The notes under the pieces were generated by a model. It saw nothing but the letters and a program-made list of their open reading frames with translations. It was not told where the DNA came from and searched no databases. The position numbers were made by a program, and so were the translations under genes. Shown here one piece after another: positions 5,024 to 59,231 of a DNA stretch of 64,000 nt. The first letter of the stretch is position 1. Every line of letters starts with the position of its first letter. This DNA is from Paludisphaera mucosa (lineage in GTDB: Bacteria; Planctomycetota; Planctomycetia; Isosphaerales; Isosphaeraceae). Location of the stretch: assembly GCF_029589435.1 (NCBI RefSeq), contig NZ_JARRAG010000002.1, positions 310,001 through 374,000 on the forward strand. The letters are read 5' to 3'.

Positions 5024-5396
5024 GACCGGGTAGCTCAGTCGGTAGAGCAACGGACTTCAAGCGCGGCCTCGGCCGCGGAATAGGAGCCTCGCGCGGGAAG
5101 AAACCGAACCGCGCGAGTGGATGCCGCTATATGCTGGGACGCCCTGAGAGCCCCTCGCGCCACAACGCGGCCGGCGACGGCGAACGTGACGGCTCGAGAA
5201 GCGGGGGGATTGGGTCATCAGCAGGCAAGGAACCGGGGGATCCCCGGCTTCAGCCTCAGAGACTACACGCGGCACGCCTGCGACGGCGAAGAGATAGTCC
5301 AGACCATCAAGCCGATCCCCCCGGGGAACGGTGGTCGGTGAAAGCCGATGAGGTAGGTTAATCCGTTGGTCGTGGGTTCGAGCCCCACCCCGGTCA
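5024..5396 (+). tRNA. tRNA-Lys(UUU) interrupted by a group I intron
   Basis: A complete cloverleaf forms when about 300 internal bases are removed. The acceptor stem GACCGGG (5024-5030) pairs with CCCGGTC (5389-5395), with discriminator A5396. The D arm is GCTC/GAGC (5033-5048). The anticodon stem ACGGA (5050-5054) pairs with TCCGT (5362-5366). The variable loop is TGGTC and the T arm is GTGGG-TTCGAGC-CCCAC. Joining T5057 to T5358 gives the loop CTTTTAA and anticodon UUU. No CCA is encoded. The 3' part from 5361 is repeated at 38664, so this gene is the attachment site of the island to its right. The anticodon depends on the splice-site call, which follows the group I rule (exon ends in U, intron ends in G). 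Confidence 0.85.
5058..5357 (+). ncRNA. Group I self-splicing intron in the tRNA-Lys anticodon
   Basis: A 300-base insertion between anticodon positions 34 and 35. The diagnostic catalytic-core strings are present: AGACTACACGCGG (about 5259-5271) and GAAGAGATAGTCC (about 5288-5300). Their GACTA/TAGTC segments form P7. The upstream exon ends in U and the intron ends in G (G5357), as group I splicing requires. There is no open reading frame for a homing endonuclease. The small size and anticodon-loop position resemble the bacterial tRNA introns of the IC3 subgroup known from tRNA-Leu, tRNA-Ile and tRNA-Arg genes. Subgroup and exact ends should be confirmed by a covariance model. Confidence 0.85.
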
Positions 5397-5624
5397 CTCG
5401 CTCAAGTACCTGCTGAATCCGTACTTACGGATACCCGCCCAACCTGGGCGGTGCGGCCTGACTGATCCGTAAGCCGGTAATTACCGGATTCTGGAGGTCT
5501 CGTCGTGCCCACCGCCCGCGTCAGAACGCCCGCCTACCGCCATCACCGGCCGTCCGGCCAGGCCGTCGTCACCCTATCGGGCCGCGATTTCTACCTGGGA
5601 CGCCACGGCTCCCCCGAGAGCCGC
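5361..5624 (+). repeat. Proximal attachment-site repeat
   Basis: Left copy of the long direct repeat. The first 43 bases (anticodon stem, variable loop, T arm and acceptor of the tRNA, to 5403) are identical to 38664-38706. The remaining bases, including the ribosome binding site GGAGGT and first codons of the integrase, are about 90 percent identical by eye. The crossover is probably within or next to the anticodon-stem/T-arm segment. Confidence 0.85.
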
Positions 5625-6690
5625 GGCGAGTACGATCGGCTCGTGGCCGAATGGTTGTCCAGAGGCCGGAGGGTCCCCGGTCTCGGAGTCCCATCGGGGG
5701 ACGACCCCGCCGGTCGATCCGTCGCCGAGGTCATCCTCGCCTACATCCACTTCGCCGACGGCTACTAGACGAAGAATGGTTCGCCCGCCTCCGAAGTCCG
5801 GAACATCAAGCTCGCCCTCCGCCCGCTTCGATGGCTCTACGGCCCCAGCCGACTTCGGGCCGCTCGCGCTGAAGGCGGTCCGTCAGGCGACGATCGAGCT
5901 GGGGATCTGCCGCAAGGAGGTCAACAAGCGGATCCGCCACATCGTCCGCATGTTCCGGTGGGCGGTGGAGAACGAGCTGGTCGCGCCGACGGTCCACGCG
6001 GCGCTGAAGGCCGTCCGGGGGGGCTCTCCAGGGGGAGGGGACCGAGGCCCGGGAGTCCGCCCCGTGAGGCCCGTCCCCGACGCCGCGGTGGACGCCATAC
6101 GTCCATACGCCTCGCGCCAGGTGTGGGCGATGATCGAGCTCCAACGCTTGACCGGCATGCGGCCCGGCGAGGTTTGCCAGATTCGACCGTGCGACGTCGA
6201 TCGGGGCGAGCGTACCTGGACCTACACCCCGGACAGCCACAATACCGAGCATCACGGCAAGGTCCGGAGGATCTATTTCGGCCCCCGAGCCCGCGAGGTC
6301 CTCCTGCCCTGGCTGCTGCGAGACTCGACGGCGTTCCTGTTCTCTCCGGCCGAAGCGGTGGCCGAGCGGCTGGCCGCCATGCGGGCGCGCCGCAAGTCGC
6401 CCGTCCAGCCGTCGCAGCTCGATCGATCGAAGGCCGACCCGGCCCGCAGCCCGCGCGACCGTTATGACGTGTCCGCTTACAATCGAGCGATCGATTACGC
6501 CTGTCGCAAGGCCGGCCTGCCCAAATGGCACCCTCACCAACTCAGGCACAACGCGGCCACGCTGCTCCGGAAGGAGTTCGGCCTGGAGACGGCCAGGGCG
6601 GTCCTCGGTCACGGCTCCACCGCAGAGACCGAAATCTATGCCGAGATCGACCCGCACGAGGCCGTCGCCGCGATGGAACGAATCGGCTGA
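5505..6690 (+). pseudogene. Tyrosine recombinase (island integrase), interrupted by amber stop and frameshift
   Basis: The planctomycete-type integrase starts at the GTG/ATG region near 5505 after a GGAGGT site, with the N-terminal segment AYRHHRPSGQAVVTLSG. In that frame a TAG at 5766-5768 interrupts the protein after ILAYIHFADGY. Homologous sequence continues beyond it (KNGSPASEVRNIKLALRPLR), and then the frame shifts near 5850. The downstream frame (to 6690) holds the core-binding region and the complete catalytic domain: Arg in LTGMRPGE, HQLRH, LGH and the nucleophile Tyr in EIYAEID. The enzyme is therefore dead unless both lesions are bypassed. The amber codon is notable because a CUA-anticodon tRNA lies at 42770-42852. 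One lesion could be a sequencing error; two argue for decay. Confidence 0.85.
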
Positions 6691-31561: not shown

Positions 31562-32394
31562 TCCTGTCCAATAAGGGCTGATTTCACCGGCGAAGGCGTC
31601 GGATCATCAGGTGGATCATGGCGATCTTGATGAAGGCCTCGCTGCTCTCGATCGTCCGCTCGTACTCCTTGGAGAGCCGGCGGGAGCGGCCCAGCCATCC
31701 GAACGTCCGCTCCACGATCCAGCGTTTCGGCTGGACCACGAACCCGACCTGGCCGGCCAACTTCCGCACCGCCACGCCGACCCAGGCCCACATGATCCGG
31801 CCGTGCGTCAGGGCCGTGTCGAAATGCGAGTCGCCCCAGACGACCTTCAGTCTCTTGACCGCCTCACGCAGCCGGTCCATCAGCGGCGGCCCGCCGGCGC
31901 GATCCTGGACGTCGGCCGGTACGACCATCAACGCCCAGATCAGCCCGCGAGTGTCGACGGCCACGAATCGCTTGCGGCCCGCCGTCTTTTCCCCCCCGTC
32001 GTAGCCGTTGGGGGAGCTGTACTCGGTCCCCTTGACCGTCTGGCCGTCGACGATGGCGACCGACGGCTTGGGCTTCTTGCCGACGGCCCGTCGCACCTTG
32101 GCGCGGAGGGCGTCGTGGACGCGGTCCCAGGTACCGTCGGCCTGCCAGGCCCGGAAGTAATGGAAGACGATTCGATACGGCGGCAGGTCGTGCGGCAGGG
32201 CCCGCCAGGTTCAGCCGTTCCGCGTCTGGTACAGGATCGCGTCGATTAAATCCCGCCGCTCATACCGCGCGGGCCGGCCGCCCGGCTTGGGGCGGGGGAC
32301 GTAGGGCTCGATAAGCCGCCATTGGCGGTCCGTCAGGTCGGTCGGGTAGGGTGTCCGGCTCATGCCATCCAGACTATCGGCCCCCTCTTCTGGA
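31562..32394. mobile_element. IS5-family insertion sequence (ends approximate)
   Basis: Imperfect terminal inverted repeats are visible: TCCTGTCCAATAAGGG near the left end (from about 31563) and, as complement, CCTTGTCCAGAAGAGGG near the right end (about 32382-32398). It encodes one leftward transposase interrupted by a TGA. It sits at the break of the mod gene. Exact boundaries and target duplication could not be fixed by eye. Confidence 0.75.
31584..32363 (-). pseudogene. IS5-family transposase with internal TGA
   Basis: The frame from the ATG at 32363 reads YPTDLTDRQWRLIEPYVP, then RRDLIDAILYQTRNG. A TGA at 32211-32213 interrupts it, and it continues in the same frame as TWRALPHDLPPYRIVFHYF. 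The rest holds the DDE core of the IS427-like IS5 group: IVDGQTVKGTEY, VVWGDSHFD and the Glu in RWIVERTFGWLGRSRRLSKEYE. Relatives usually have Cys or Ser at the stop position, so one substitution explains the lesion. The stop is not at a frameshift site, so this copy is probably dead. Confidence 0.85.
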
Positions 32395-42769: not shown

Positions 42770-42852
42770 TGGGTGTGGAGGGATTTGAACCCCCTCAGTC
42801 AGGGACACCGCGTTTAGAGCGCGGCCCGGCTCTCCAACTCCGGCGCACACCC
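42770..42852 (-). tRNA. Class II tRNA with CUA (amber) anticodon, tRNA-Tyr-like
   Basis: An 83-base cloverleaf. Acceptor GGGTGTG pairs with CACACCC and the discriminator is A. The D stem is CCGG/CCGG with GG in the loop. Anticodon stem CCGCG/CGCGG encloses loop CTCTAAA, giving anticodon CUA (plus-strand bases 42815-42817). The 13-base variable arm includes GTC-CCT-GAC, and the T arm has loop TTCAAAT. All stems pair well. The anticodon loop equals that of the E. coli supF amber suppressor, and the variable arm and A73 fit tRNA-Tyr. It should therefore read UAG. No CCA is encoded. First to be listed of three class II tRNAs spaced 6 bases apart. Confidence 0.85.
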
Positions 42853-42858
42853 GAAGAG

Positions 42859-42941
42859 CGGAAGCGGCAGGATTCGAACCTGCGGTGGTTGCCCGCACCT
42901 GGACAGCAACCAGGCACGATAAGCCTCTCTGACGCGCTTCC
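42859..42941 (-). tRNA. tRNA-Ser(GCU)-like, unusual D arm
   Basis: An 83-base gene with acceptor GGAAGCG/CGCTTCC, discriminator G, and anticodon stem CCTGG/CCAGG. The loop TTGCTGT gives anticodon GCU (plus-strand bases 42905-42907). The variable arm has 14 bases and the T arm is GCAGG-TTCGAAT-CCTGC. The D arm (TCAGAGAGGCTTATCGTG) hardly pairs and the anticodon loop ends in GT instead of the usual purines. The identity is likely Ser by anticodon, long arm and G73. The odd D arm may mean a decayed gene or an unusual structure. Confidence 0.65.
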
Positions 42942-42947
42942 AAGATG

Positions 42948-43030
42948 CGGAGGGAGAGGGAATCGAACCCCCAAGTCCTTGCGGACGGTAGTTTTCGAGA
43001 CTACTGCCTTACCAGTTAGGCTATCCCTCC
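42948..43030 (-). tRNA. tRNA-Ser(CGA)
   Basis: An 83-base class II tRNA. Acceptor GGAGGGA pairs with TCCCTCC and the discriminator is G. The D stem is GCCT/AGGC with loop AACTGGTA. Anticodon stem GTAGT/ACTAC encloses loop CTCGAAA, giving anticodon CGA (plus-strand bases 42995-42997) for UCG. The variable arm has a clear hairpin GTCC-GCAA-GGAC. The T loop is TTCGATT. All stems are intact. Upstream-most of the three tandem tRNAs on this strand. Confidence 0.88.
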
Positions 43031-43551
43031 GTCTGGCGTGGACGAGACCGGCCGAGCGTCCACCTGCGATAAGGAGGACGATCGGATCGTCTCGGATCCC
43101 GAACGGACGTCTGGGATCGGGGCCGGCGTCCCACCGGCGAATCGGAGCCGTGCATCACGATGACGGCGAGGATCGAGGCGCTCGACAGGGCGAGCAACGT
43201 CGAACCGGCGAGCACGGGCCGTGCGTCAATATGAGGACAGGCGGCCCCGACCGGGATACCGCGAACGCGAACTCACGGATCGCGCCGGGAGCACGAGAGA
43301 GGTGGCGAGTTGTTCGGGATGGGTGTTCATAATCGAACCGCATCATGGCTTGAGAACGAGAGGCCAGTTGCAGGTCTGACGCAGAGGGTGCTCACCAGGT
43401 TCGCAGTTGGACGAGAGCTTTCGGGGGGGCCTCGCCTCGGTGCCTTCCGCCTGGGCGCTCCGGGCTCGATTCGTCCCGTATTCCACCCCGGAGCGGATCA
43501 CGCTCGCCCGTCTCACGGCATCCCGCGAGGATCCGGGAACAGGCCGGACGC
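43031..43551. other. Gene-free stretch beside the tRNA cluster
   Basis: About 520 bases upstream of the tRNAs. A short minus-strand frame (43021-43215) begins MLAGSTLLALSSASILAVIV, which looks like a membrane leader, but it runs into the tRNA and then becomes Arg-rich. I found no convincing gene. The tRNA promoter should lie near 43040-43090. Confidence 0.45.
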
Positions 43552-44931
43552 TCAACCCGCGCCCCAGCGCCGCCGCTTCCGCCTCCACTTGAGACGACTC
43601 TTCCGTGGGGCGTAGTACGACCCCAGGGTCTGCATGGCGACGATCGAGAGCCAGACCGCGAGCAGCCAGCAGGCCAGGCTCGCCGGGATGTAGGCCCAGA
43701 ACGCCCGGTCGCGCAGGGCCAGCGCGGCCGCGAAGGCGATCCCGACGAGGGCGAAGAGGGCCGCGATGGTCAGGTTGAGCCCGAGGAACGACGGGCCGAG
43801 CCGCGCGATCGCGCCGAAGACCGCCCCCGGCCGGGCCGCCAGGTCGTCGTCGTGCAGGAAGGTCAACATGAGAGCCATCAGGGCGTAAGGGAGCCCGGCC
43901 AGCCCGAGGGCCGCGGCCACGCCGGGACTCCACGTCCCGCCCGACGAGGTCAGCGTCATTCGGTAGGTCGCCAGCGGCAGCAGGCCGACGCCCGCCCCGA
44001 GCACGATCCAGAGGAGCCAGGTGCCCATGCCGTCCAGGAGGCCGTCGGCGTTGCGGTCGGGCGGGCGAGGCGGCAGGGGCTCCCCCTCGCTCGAGGCCAC
44101 AAGCACCCGCGCCAGGTACTGGAGATCGTAGACCATGACCAGGGGCGACAGGATCAGGACGGGCAACGCCGAGATCAGGGCGATCAGGCGGCCCATCGAG
44201 GGCGTCCCCATCAGTTCGCCGTCGGCGAGGATGGCCAGGCAATACTCCGGAACCAGGGTGCCCATCACCCAGGCCGCGCCCCCGATCGCCGCGACCATCG
44301 CCAGGCCCTCGACCCCCCGCGACGGGTAGAGGAGTTGCGGAGGCCACCACGGATCCAGGCGCTGCGGCTCGGCTTCCTCCGGCTCCCTCTTCGCGCCGGC
44401 AGCCCGCGGGGCGAGAGGCGGGTGGGACTCGGCGTCCTCGACCGTCCCTCGAGGCTCCTCTGGGAGCTGCACCGACGTCGACGCGGGCGGGTGCGCGCCC
44501 AGTTCATAGTGGCCCTGCCAGGTCCACTCGCCGTCGGTCGCCTCGGCCGTTTCGGCGGGCGGCGCAGGCTCGTTCGGGACTTCGGGCTCGTCGGGCCACG
44601 GCCCCAGAGGCCCGCGCACAGTCGCCCGGTCGAGCGCACTAGACGTGGCGCGAGGCGGTTCGGCCGGGGCGAGGTCGTACGCCCCCTGCCAGTCCCATTC
44701 GTCCTCCTCGATCGCCAGGGCCGTCGCGGGCTCGGCCGGAGCGACTTCGGGGCCCTGCCGGAGCATCTCTAGCACCTCGTCGTCCGACACCGCCTCGGGC
44801 GGAGGGGCCTTGGCGCCTGTGGGCATTCGGAACGTGCGACCGCAGCCTGGACAGCGCCCGCTCTTGCCGGGCGCCATCCCCGCCGCATTCAACCGCCGTC
44901 CGCAAGGACAGATCAGAATCGTCGCACTCAT
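43552..44931 (-). CDS. Zinc-ribbon multi-pass membrane protein
   Basis: A 459-residue protein. An N-terminal zinc ribbon (CPCGRRL and CPGCGRTFRMP, residues ~9-36) is followed by an acidic, Pro-rich linker (about 40-195). It contains two imperfect repeats around WDWQGAYDL and WTWQGHYEL. After that come about seven membrane segments (from MVAAIGGAAWVMGTLV onward), and a strongly basic end RKSRLKWRRKRRR. The combination of ribbon and membrane domain is common in planctomycetes, but no function is known. Two ACAATTGT palindromes lie 55-100 bases before the start. Expressed alone, on the minus strand. Confidence 0.8.
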   Translation of the reverse strand: MSATILICPCGRRLNAAGMAPGKSGRCPGCGRTFRMPTGAKAPPPEAVSDDEVLEMLRQGPEVAPAEPATALAIEEDEWDWQGAYDLAPAEPPRATSSALDRATVRGPLGPWPDEPEVPNEPAPPAETAEATDGEWTWQGHYELGAHPPASTSVQLPEEPRGTVEDAESHPPLAPRAAGAKREPEEAEPQRLDPWWPPQLLYPSRGVEGLAMVAAIGGAAWVMGTLVPEYCLAILADGELMGTPSMGRLIALISALPVLILSPLVMVYDLQYLARVLVASSEGEPLPPRPPDRNADGLLDGMGTWLLWIVLGAGVGLLPLATYRMTLTSSGGTWSPGVAAALGLAGLPYALMALMLTFLHDDDLAARPGAVFGAIARLGPSFLGLNLTIAALFALVGIAFAAALALRDRAFWAYIPASLACWLLAVWLSIVAMQTLGSYYAPRKSRLKWRRKRRRWGAG

Positions 44932-45286
44932 GGCGTTTACCCGCTCATTCGACTCCCCGCCCGGCGACGCCGCATCGCCGTTAACGACAATTGTAGTGGC
45001 ATGAGTGACGGTTCTTCAATGACAATTGTCAATCAAGCCGTGAGGCGTGCGCCAGGCGCGTGCGAACCGCTCCAGCCATACCGAGGAGCGACCGTTGGAG
45101 CCGGTCTTCCTTGAGGCGACCTGACCCGCATGCGAGGGGCATGGCGGGATCGCCGTCCAGCCCGAGGGGCCGAGGACGGGACTGTGCGGCAGGCGCCGCG
45201 GCGAAGGATGCATCCCCACGGTCGATGGTCAGTCCCGTCATGGGGCTGCTTTCGTCCCATCCAATCGAAGATCGTTGATGATGGGT
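44932..45286. other. Intergenic region with promoter-type palindromes
   Basis: About 355 bases between the YebC gene stop and the start of the zinc-ribbon membrane protein gene. No gene is apparent. The part next to the membrane protein gene holds the two ACAATTGT palindromes listed separately. Confidence 0.5.
44986..45031. promoter_or_regulatory. Paired ACAATTGT palindromes, candidate operator
   Basis: GACAATTGT at 44986-44994 and the perfect 12-base palindrome TGACAATTGTCA at 45020-45031. Their centres are about 35 bases apart (three to four helical turns), in an otherwise GC-rich region. They lie 55-100 bases before the start at 44931 of the zinc-ribbon membrane protein gene. This is a good place for a repressor or activator, but the protein is unknown. 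Confidence 0.5.
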
Positions 45287-56552: not shown

Positions 56553-59231
56553 TCTGCCCTAATGACTCACCGGCTTTGCATGCACCAAATGAGAAATCAA
56601 GCATCCTAACCATTCCTGCGGCCGCATCACCTTGCTAAACGATGATCGACGACCATTCGGTTTGACACGATGTTGCAAGTCTCGCTCGAATACGTCAAAG
56701 TTGATCAAGGACATCTAAAAGAGCTCGCAAAAGAGAAAGGGCTAGGAATCCATGCAAGTCACGAACGAGAATACTCTAAGAAAGGCGTTTGCCGGCGGAA
56801 TCAATCTGTTTCTCGGTGCCGGCTTCTCAGTGCTGGCCAAGAATGCCGAGGGACGGGCGCTTCCAGTAGGTCGGACACTTAACGAGGAGCTCGGCACCCT
56901 TTTCAAAGTAGACGGAGTGGATCATTTGACTCTCGCCCAACTCTGCACGATCATCCAGTCGGAAAGACGTCAGGAGTTGGACGACTATCTGCGACGCCGC
57001 TATAGAGTGAAGTCGTTCGACCCGAGATATTCGGCTGTACAAACACTGAATATCAAGAATATATTCACCACCAATATAGACGACCTAATACAGTCTATGT
57101 ACGCCGCCAGCAAAACCCACTACCTGAACAATATCACACTAAGAGGTGCGTCCTTCAACGAGAAAAGGGCGATCGATTTCGCACCCCTACATGGATCGGT
57201 CACTGACGAAACACGCCAGTTGACTTTCGGGACCCTCGATCTAGCCACGGCGTTCGCATCTGACCAAGATCTCTGGAGCTTCTTCATGAGAAGCATCCAA
57301 TTGTTCCCCACACTCTTCTGGGGATACAGCCTCAGCGACGCCGGGGTTCTGCAAGCATTAAACCCTAGTTCTATCAACATGCGTCAGCACGAGGACAAAT
57401 GGATCGTACTTAGAACAAGAGACGATGCAGAGATCAGGTATTTCACGGCGTTAGGATTTCAAATCCTTATTGCCGAGACGAATGAAATGCTCGACTATAT
57501 ACGAGGCCTAGGTTTAGCCGTGCATCCAGCGGCTTCCCCAGTCTCCAAGTCGACCGAGGAACTCTTTCCCGAGGAGGCAATTCCTGCAATCGGCTCTGTT
57601 CCAGTTCGACCGCTTCAGGAATTTTTCTTCGGCGCCCCACCGTCGTGGAGCGATATATACTCACAGCGACTGCAACGAACTTCACACTACGCAAAGGTCG
57701 TCGATTCAATCAATGCACACCGAGACACAATAATCGTGGGAATGCCGGCCTCAGGCAAGACAACTCTATTAATGCAAGCGGCGGCGCACGTCAAATTCAC
57801 CGGACATAAACTTGTCTGCAATTCACTGACTCCTGAAAAAGTGCAACTTCTACTGCGTCGACTGGGGCCAGATCCTGCATTGATTTTCGTCGACAATTAC
57901 ACGGACAGCGTGGACGCATTCGTAGCACTCACTGGCGCCGCAAACGTAGTCGCAGTAGGAGTTGATCGCGACTTTAATTTCGAAGTAACGTCACACCTCT
58001 TGCCACTCAACGACATAAGCGTTATCAATATTACCGATTTAAGCGAACCTGATATCCAAAAGATATTCGAAAACGTCCCCCTCGACATTCGAACCTCTCA
58101 TCTAAATAGACCAAAAGTGGCGAGAGGGCTTCATCCATCTCTTTACGAGATTATCGAATCGAACATAACTAAGCCATCACTTCGAAAGCGATTTGCAGAA
58201 ATGCTCCGAAAGCTCGAAGGGAGCAGCCCAAACCACCTCGACTTGCTTGGCATGTGCTGCTATGTGCACTATTGCCGATGTCCCGTCTCCATGGAGACGA
58301 TAGCGGCCTTTCTCCGCGATGTGTTGTCCGATTACATGGAGGCCTATACATGGCTCGAGCAACTCGGCACTCTTATTTCAGAAGATGTCGGGCCACTGTT
58401 GGACCCACCTCAGGATTACTTTACTCCCCGGTCGAGCTTGGTATCCGAAGCGATTTTTCAACAGCTACCCCCCAAGTCGCTCAAACGAGTTCTCCTCAAG
58501 TTCCACAGAAATGTCTCGATTGTCAAGATATGCAGATACGATATTTTTCGAAGAAAGGCGTTTGATGCCGATATCGCTTACCGAGCCTTCTCAAACTGGG
58601 AAGAAGGCATCGAATTTTATGAGCTGGCATATAAACGAGACGGATCGTACTTCACCAAGCAGCAAGGCGCGCTTTACCTCTCCAAAAAGAAACGCTTCCC
58701 CGAAGCATTCCGCTTGATTGACGAAGCCATCTCAATGAGCAGGGGCAGGATTTTCTCGATTCGAAACACGCATGCGATGCTCTTGTTTCAAGCCAACATC
58801 TTGCAGGATCACGATGACAAGACAGTGCGCGCCACCCTCTGCCGAAGCATGGAAATACTCAACGAGTGCCATACTCAGGACAGGCGCAAGCTATACCACG
58901 CTATAGTGTTTGGCAAACAGGCGGTCGAGTTCCATAATGTGTATTCCGATGATATCTCTAAAAGCTACCTCGAACTTGCAGACAAATGGCTCACCGAGGA
59001 AGTCAGACGTTCGCCATGGAACTACGACGTCCGACACGTGCATAACAATGTCAGACTATTAAATGCAAATTAGAGACAAGCGTATTTTGAACTAAGCTGT
59101 AACTAGTGACGCGTCACACGCTAACTACCGCATTGTCAAGGCAGCAATGTCTTGACAATATGACCTCGAATAGACCTTCTCTGCTTTGCAGCCCACGATC
59201 CGATAGCCGAGCCCGGGAGCGCTTCGTGACG
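56553..59231. other. AT-rich insertion carrying one gene
   Basis: The base composition changes abruptly: roughly half A+T here against about 70 percent G+C on both sides, and the codon use of the single gene inside follows the low-GC pattern (many ATA, TTA, AGA). No integrase, IS, terminal repeat or tRNA was found at the edges; the flanking genes are intact. It looks like a recently gained segment between the hydrolase-like gene and the amylase gene. Confidence 0.8.
56752..59073 (+). CDS. SIR2-domain plus P-loop (STAND-like) NTPase, predicted defence protein
   Basis: A 773-residue cytoplasmic protein. Residues 1-~280 form a SIR2-like NAD-binding domain: FLGAGFS at 20-26, FTTNIDD at 105-111, and the catalytic-type His147 in LHGS. 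A P-loop ATPase follows: Walker A GMPASGKTT at 330-338, Walker B ALIFVDNY with Asp381. The part after ~560 is helical and repeat-like (YELAYKRDGSYFTKQQGALYL). SIR2 fused to a STAND-type NTPase occurs in antiphage proteins such as Avs5, where phage sensing leads to NAD depletion; the role here is inference. AGGA precedes the ATG. The gene ends in TAG and is the only one in an AT-rich insertion. No partner gene is visible. Confidence 0.82.
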   Translation: MQVTNENTLRKAFAGGINLFLGAGFSVLAKNAEGRALPVGRTLNEELGTLFKVDGVDHLTLAQLCTIIQSERRQELDDYLRRRYRVKSFDPRYSAVQTLNIKNIFTTNIDDLIQSMYAASKTHYLNNITLRGASFNEKRAIDFAPLHGSVTDETRQLTFGTLDLATAFASDQDLWSFFMRSIQLFPTLFWGYSLSDAGVLQALNPSSINMRQHEDKWIVLRTRDDAEIRYFTALGFQILIAETNEMLDYIRGLGLAVHPAASPVSKSTEELFPEEAIPAIGSVPVRPLQEFFFGAPPSWSDIYSQRLQRTSHYAKVVDSINAHRDTIIVGMPASGKTTLLMQAAAHVKFTGHKLVCNSLTPEKVQLLLRRLGPDPALIFVDNYTDSVDAFVALTGAANVVAVGVDRDFNFEVTSHLLPLNDISVINITDLSEPDIQKIFENVPLDIRTSHLNRPKVARGLHPSLYEIIESNITKPSLRKRFAEMLRKLEGSSPNHLDLLGMCCYVHYCRCPVSMETIAAFLRDVLSDYMEAYTWLEQLGTLISEDVGPLLDPPQDYFTPRSSLVSEAIFQQLPPKSLKRVLLKFHRNVSIVKICRYDIFRRKAFDADIAYRAFSNWEEGIEFYELAYKRDGSYFTKQQGALYLSKKKRFPEAFRLIDEAISMSRGRIFSIRNTHAMLLFQANILQDHDDKTVRATLCRSMEILNECHTQDRRKLYHAIVFGKQAVEFHNVYSDDISKSYLELADKWLTEEVRRSPWNYDVRHVHNNVRLLNAN

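Follow-up and report, generated by a model that had tools for sequence, protein, structure and literature searches.

A tRNA gene with the anticodon CUA in a bacterium of the standard code raises the question of whether Paludisphaera mucosa re-reads UAG or carries a suppressor in form only. The gene lies in the window, a stretch of 64,000 nucleotides corresponding to C2:310001-374000 of the 8.2-Mb P. mucosa genome (G000); positions below without a contig name are those of the window. The original prediction, made from the letters alone, described a tRNA-Tyr-like amber suppressor that might recode UAG in some genes or be mobile.

The CUA tRNA gene and its neighbours

ARAGORN called a minus-strand tRNA with anticodon CTA at 42770-42852, labelling it "tRNA-Pyl", and the Rfam tRNA model, whose gathering score is 29, gave it 42.5 bits. 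The predicted gene is therefore real and, when checked for a pseudogene-like score, passes comfortably. It forms a class II cloverleaf with a long variable arm and G1-C72, in which all five stems are paired: acceptor stem GGGTGTG/CACACCC, D stem CCGG/CCGG, anticodon stem CCGCG/CGCGG, variable stem GTC/GAC and T stem GGGGG/CCCTC, the last with one G-U pair. Its anticodon loop is CTCTAAA (CUCUAAA, of the supF type) and its discriminator base is A73, so complete pairing, loop and discriminator are all confirmed as predicted. When six relatives were aligned, 144 of 144 pair cells (100%) were standard and six pairs showed compensatory change, with both sides altered. Free folding recovered the cloverleaf from neither the CUA gene nor its GUA copy. 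The long variable arm, G1-C72 and A73 are those of a bacterial class II tRNA-Tyr body, but the anticodon is CUA where tRNA-Tyr has GUA, as do the paralogue and all relatives described below. With a CUA anticodon in an otherwise normal elongator tRNA, the gene has at least the form of a natural amber suppressor.

The gene comes last in a trio of accessory tRNAs, Ser(CGA)-Ser(GCU)-Tyr-like(CUA), which all lie on the minus strand within 261 bases, separated by spacers of 6 bases. The features of the locus are as follows.

42770..42852, minus strand: tRNA gene with anticodon CUA on an accessory tRNA-Tyr body, the natural amber-suppressor form (ARAGORN; Rfam; GUA paralogue)
42859..42941, minus strand: accessory tRNA-Ser(GCU), damaged copy (Rfam, 34.7 bits)
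42948..43030, minus strand: accessory tRNA-Ser(CGA) (ARAGORN; Rfam, 59.7 bits)
43031..43420, minus strand: upstream region common to four genomic sites with a trio, a putative leader/promoter region (alignment)
43552..44931, minus strand: gene for a 459-aa zinc-ribbon/membrane protein, adjoining the trio at both P. mucosa sites

The housekeeping tRNA set is present beside the trio and includes the separate canonical tRNA-Tyr(GUA) that had been proposed as a check, at C2:3999325. The middle tRNA of the trio, Ser(GCU), is damaged: its anticodon loop reads TTGCTGT rather than TTGCTAA, with A37 and A38 gone, a variable-arm pair is lost and two pairs of the D stem are non-standard. Searches of Pfam, NCBIfam, PHROGs and PDB assigned the 459-aa protein to no family; its gene also occurs, without the trio, in G004 and G005. 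Elsewhere in the genome we observed an array of 23 divergent accessory tRNAs (L032:2266-8402; G000:C1:837265-843402), and similar arrays were seen in several Isosphaeraceae (L056, L058, L065, L067). ARAGORN also called tRNA-Ile genes with the anticodon AAU, unusual in bacteria, in L047 (G000:C2:2844474) and at L052:3108-3183.

Second trio, relatives and origin of the anticodon

P. mucosa has a second trio elsewhere (C2:2575502-2575811), made up of Ser(CGA), Ser(GCU) and Tyr(GUA). Its Tyr gene, a paralogue with anticodon GTA, bears out the tRNA-Tyr body that had been deduced from shape; it differs from the CUA gene at only 3 of 83 bases. The first difference is the anticodon itself, where G34 is replaced by C in the window copy; the second changes a T-loop base from G to A (TTCGAAT to TTCAAAT); the third is a T/C difference just 3' of the anticodon stem, at which G025 shares the window's T. 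The two Ser(GCU) copies differ at eight positions, and the DNA upstream of the two trios has diverged by ~21%. The DNA of the 459-aa gene matches across the two sites (window 43542-45025 and C2:2576177-2577674) at 83%, with 76% protein identity.

The paralogue bears on two other explanations of the CUA anticodon. That the gene encodes a pyrrolysine tRNA, in line with its ARAGORN label, is hardly conceivable: the label was assigned for the anticodon, the near-identical paralogue is Tyr(GUA), and the D loop is normal and the variable arm of class II. Matches to the PylS model lay at 23-24 bits, below its cut-off of 178, and such sub-threshold matches also occurred in 12 of 14 control genomes; the absence of PylS refutes a pyrrolysine system. 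A sequencing or assembly error at position 34 is conceivable in that a single assembly is the basis of the call, but the eight Ser(GCU) differences and ~21% flank divergence argue for a separate, real locus, and the assembly consists of 9 contigs and is 100% complete. We consider such an error very unlikely.

To place the CUA form among relatives, a covariance model built from it was run on 45 genomes of the family and 397 of the class. Five matches exceeded 100 bits in the family genomes, with CUA in the window gene only, and at E 1e-12 the class genomes yielded only those same five. The whole trio occurs in G025 and G003, and G035 has the Tyr gene and one Ser gene; every Tyr gene in these genomes is GUA. 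Matches in named genomes were to Paludisphaera soli, which has the trio, and to an uncultured Isosphaeraceae bacterium, placing the tRNA within the Isosphaeraceae. Since the window gene is the sole CUA among these matches, CUA is the derived state, found in one copy of one genome.

Comparison with the second copy, G025 and G003 showed how unevenly the trio has changed. Window-private changes number two in the CUA gene, one in Ser(CGA) and five in Ser(GCU), the last including both bases 3' of the anticodon and one member of a variable-arm pair; the upstream region differs among the same four sites by 21-27% at aligned positions. Together with the ~21% divergence between the two upstream regions, these counts indicate that the duplication was not recent, that the tRNAs were under constraint and that Ser(GCU) is now failing. 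The damaged Ser(GCU) copy suggests relaxed selection.

These observations cut both ways for a plain pseudogene, in which the trio drifts, the CUA copy is unexpressed or uncharged and the anticodon change is without effect. The copy is redundant, the adjoining Ser(GCU) has lost A37, A38 and a variable-arm pair, and CUA occurs in one genome only. Moreover, no sigma-70-like promoter or terminator was found within 1 kb, with the reservation that the scanned consensus need not fit planctomycetes. Against this, the stems of the CUA gene are intact, its Rfam score is well over the cut-off and it has 2 private changes in 83 bases compared with ~21% in its flanks. We regard a plain pseudogene as a possible but clearly subordinate explanation.

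The relatives outside bacteria point to phages. Five IMG/VR contigs contain an exact copy of the D-arm half of the CUA tRNA. A tRNA could be called in four of them, Tyr(GUA) in every case; in two of these four, both tRNA-rich, Tyr(GUA) adjoins tRNA-Ser(GCU) and other Ser genes. Since phage contigs share the D arm, and two of them place it beside Ser genes, the trio is best seen as a phage-type accessory set, with divergent, clustered tRNAs beside a housekeeping set and relatives in phages. Exact-pattern searches found no CUA form in viruses and no viral matches to the two Ser tRNA patterns, and plasmid and phage records gave short or weak matches only. The proposed mobile nature of the tRNA thus holds as far as membership of such a set. 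The CUA gene is thus a redundant copy of a phage-type tRNA-Tyr that arose by duplication and differs in a single base of the anticodon.

Several other features of the window were noted. A direct repeat of 241 bases (92%), with copies 33.3 kb apart, delimits 5349-38892 and holds a tRNA-Lys 3' end and an integrase start; this segment is probably an integrative island, and the trio lies ~4 kb outside it. At 5027-5400, an insert of ~300 bases that carries group I (IC3-like) core motifs (GAGACTACACG ... AAGAGATAGTCC) splits a tRNA-Lys(UUU) in its anticodon loop; Rfam gave no group I match for this insert. The split unit has a whole match in most of the 45 Isosphaeraceae, and two genomes of genus g17 match the 5' exon alone; no housekeeping tRNA-Lys(UUU) other than the split gene was seen. 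A SIR2-like gene with a STAND NTPase (56752-59073) lies in a stretch of ~49% GC, compared with 67%, and looks like an acquired anti-phage defence gene.

Use of UAG in the P. mucosa genome

If UAG were recoded, RF1 would be expected to be absent or altered, and UAG would be frequent in frame and would not serve as a stop. Instead, P. mucosa has an intact RF1-type protein (359 aa, with GGQ and the PxT motif) and an RF2-type protein, together with a single TyrRS. In a sample of 1.68 Mb, ~20% of the genome, the 1074 called genes ended in TAG in 88 cases (8.2%), in TGA in 921 and in TAA in 65, and in-frame TAGs were found only in broken genes. In a sister species without the trio, TAG ends 15 of 271 genes. 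The next in-frame stop lay a median of 77 codons past TAG, compared with 59 and 56 past the other stops (P = 0.54); a back-up stop in the 10 codons downstream was no commoner after TAG. TAG also closes yebC, a gene 2.4 kb from the CUA tRNA that has a full set of domains. Within the window, TAG is the stop of 9 of 43 called genes, several of them in or near the island, compared with the 8.2% of the genome sample; the TAG stops cited in the original prediction are real.

A test of conservation beyond TAG stops, which had been called for, did not favour recoding. Where TAG-ended genes were followed by coding-like sequence, a Pfam test showed mostly complete neighbouring genes with their own starts. 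The pairs tested were phosphoglucomutase/UvrC, UPRTase/nucleoside phosphorylase, ArsR/AHSA1, LysR/transposase, DUF2079/sulfatase and ABC ATPase/FtsX. When the called proteins of P. mucosa and related genomes were searched by tblastn against 1.7 Mb, only one homologue-supported in-frame TAG appeared. Stop usage, extensions and the tblastn screen thus revealed no genomic footprint of UAG read-through, and recoding is unsupported by stop usage, read-through lengths, a codon-signal scan or the homologue screen. The suggestion that UAG is recoded in some genes is not supported, given the presence of RF1, TAG as a normal stop and ordinary extensions; there is no evidence for recoding of UAG in P. 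mucosa.

Three in-frame TAGs in decayed genes deserve separate consideration. A tyrosine integrase pseudogene (5505-6690) has one at 5766, at the position of a tyrosine in its homologue near C2:3391719 (GYYRKNG), and a frameshift near 5842. A multicopper oxidase pseudogene (L110:7985-9970; G000:C1:307985-309970, minus strand) has a TAG at C1:309244, again at a tyrosine of the homologue in Paludisphaera G005 (ARIYRL), and apparently several frameshifts. The third lies in an ISAs1-type transposase (L031:5473, minus strand), at what we take to be a conserved tryptophan. Another candidate, at L110:18196, was dropped because its frame is full of stops. An IS5-type transposase at 32213 (minus strand) is broken by TGA and, like the ISAs1-type case, is an ordinary decayed insertion element. 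Considering that codon usage gives a chance of 0.09-0.14 for each TAG nonsense mutation to arise from a Tyr codon, the alignment with tyrosine in two of three cases, noticed after the fact, seems mildly unusual. However, since the integrase and the oxidase are also frameshifted, reading UAG as tyrosine would leave both broken. The integrase TAG, put forward as a hint of recoding, is followed ~75 bases on by a frameshift that such reading does not mend, and a study of code screening cautions that in-frame stops of pseudogenes can mislead (PMC8629427).

These TAGs bear most directly on an active, selected suppressor, expressed constantly or under stress, that inserts tyrosine at UAG and thereby rescues nonsense-mutated or mobile genes or extends proteins. 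The supF loop, the intact tRNA body and the two degenerate genes whose TAGs align with tyrosines would fit such a role. It is nevertheless improbable, since both genes would stay broken, back-up stops are not in excess after TAG, TAG is not depleted and the CUA form is confined to one genome. It is distinctly improbable, likewise, that this standard-code bacterium keeps a working phage-derived Tyr suppressor, perhaps for stress or infection, and tolerates or exploits UAG in decaying or mobile genes.

A probable latent suppressor and comparison with known systems

We consider it probable that the gene is a latent or weak amber suppressor, derived from a duplicated phage-type tRNA-Tyr by the change of G34 to C and kept as a near-neutral, redundant copy. 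The trio would have been duplicated, and the anticodon of the window copy would then have passed from GUA to CUA by the change of G34 to C. Provided that it is transcribed and that the single TyrRS charges it, this tRNA would compete with RF1 for UAG and place tyrosine there, much as supF does; most likely such suppression is latent or weak in a genome that still uses UAG as an ordinary stop. The CUA tRNA most likely persists owing to the redundancy of the trio, the small share of UAG among the stops and a probably poor expression of the accessory tRNAs. The explanation starts from what was observed, namely the sequence, its GUA paralogue, the one-base difference in the anticodon, the relatives in phages, the presence of RF1 and the use of UAG as a stop; charging by TyrRS, low expression and near-neutrality of the CUA tRNA we infer. 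Two observations run against it. The CUA body has 2 private changes compared with 5 in Ser(GCU), and its flanks have diverged by ~21%, which indicates that the gene is not decaying freely; and the TAGs of two broken genes fall exactly at tyrosine positions. Most likely, the gene is either a suppressor whose action is latent or weak or a copy that is drifting.

The locus illustrates an easy natural route to a stop-reading tRNA, by duplication of a redundant phage-type tRNA-Tyr and change of one base. As the P. mucosa genome carries a GUA and a CUA version as a matched pair, it allows a direct test of how active a natural amber suppressor is and what it costs. An automatic "tRNA-Pyl" or suppressor call, in turn, does not amount to evidence for recoding.

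E. coli supF (Su+III) is an amber suppressor tRNA-Tyr with G34 changed to C, the loop CUCUAAA, a class II arm and A73. The window gene shares all four traits; it differs in deriving from an accessory phage-type tRNA-Tyr, in belonging to a natural genome and in being a putative suppressor. Accessory arrays have a parallel in the trn operon of Anabaena sp. PCC 7120, whose 26 tRNAs are induced by translational stress (PMC10272220), a precedent that speaks for an active suppressor. In both bacteria a complete housekeeping set is accompanied by additional, divergent tRNAs, but P. mucosa has a short trio that is not known to be regulated; by analogy, conditional expression of the trio is possible. 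CUA tRNAs have already been reported both in a jumbo phage and in standard-code genomes. The Xanthomonas jumbo phage XacN1 carries them with no recognisable target genes (PMC5852040), and resembles P. mucosa in combining a phage-type tRNA set and a CUA tRNA with a standard-code setting; the P. mucosa gene, however, is chromosomal. The stretch of XacN1 that we scanned held no CUA gene for comparison. Suppressor tRNAs occur in 0.3% of standard-code bacterial genomes, a figure that spans UGA and other stops (PMC13092985). P. mucosa resembles these genomes in having a stop-reading tRNA while retaining its stops, and adds a case in which the origin of such a tRNA is resolved, by duplication of a phage-type gene.
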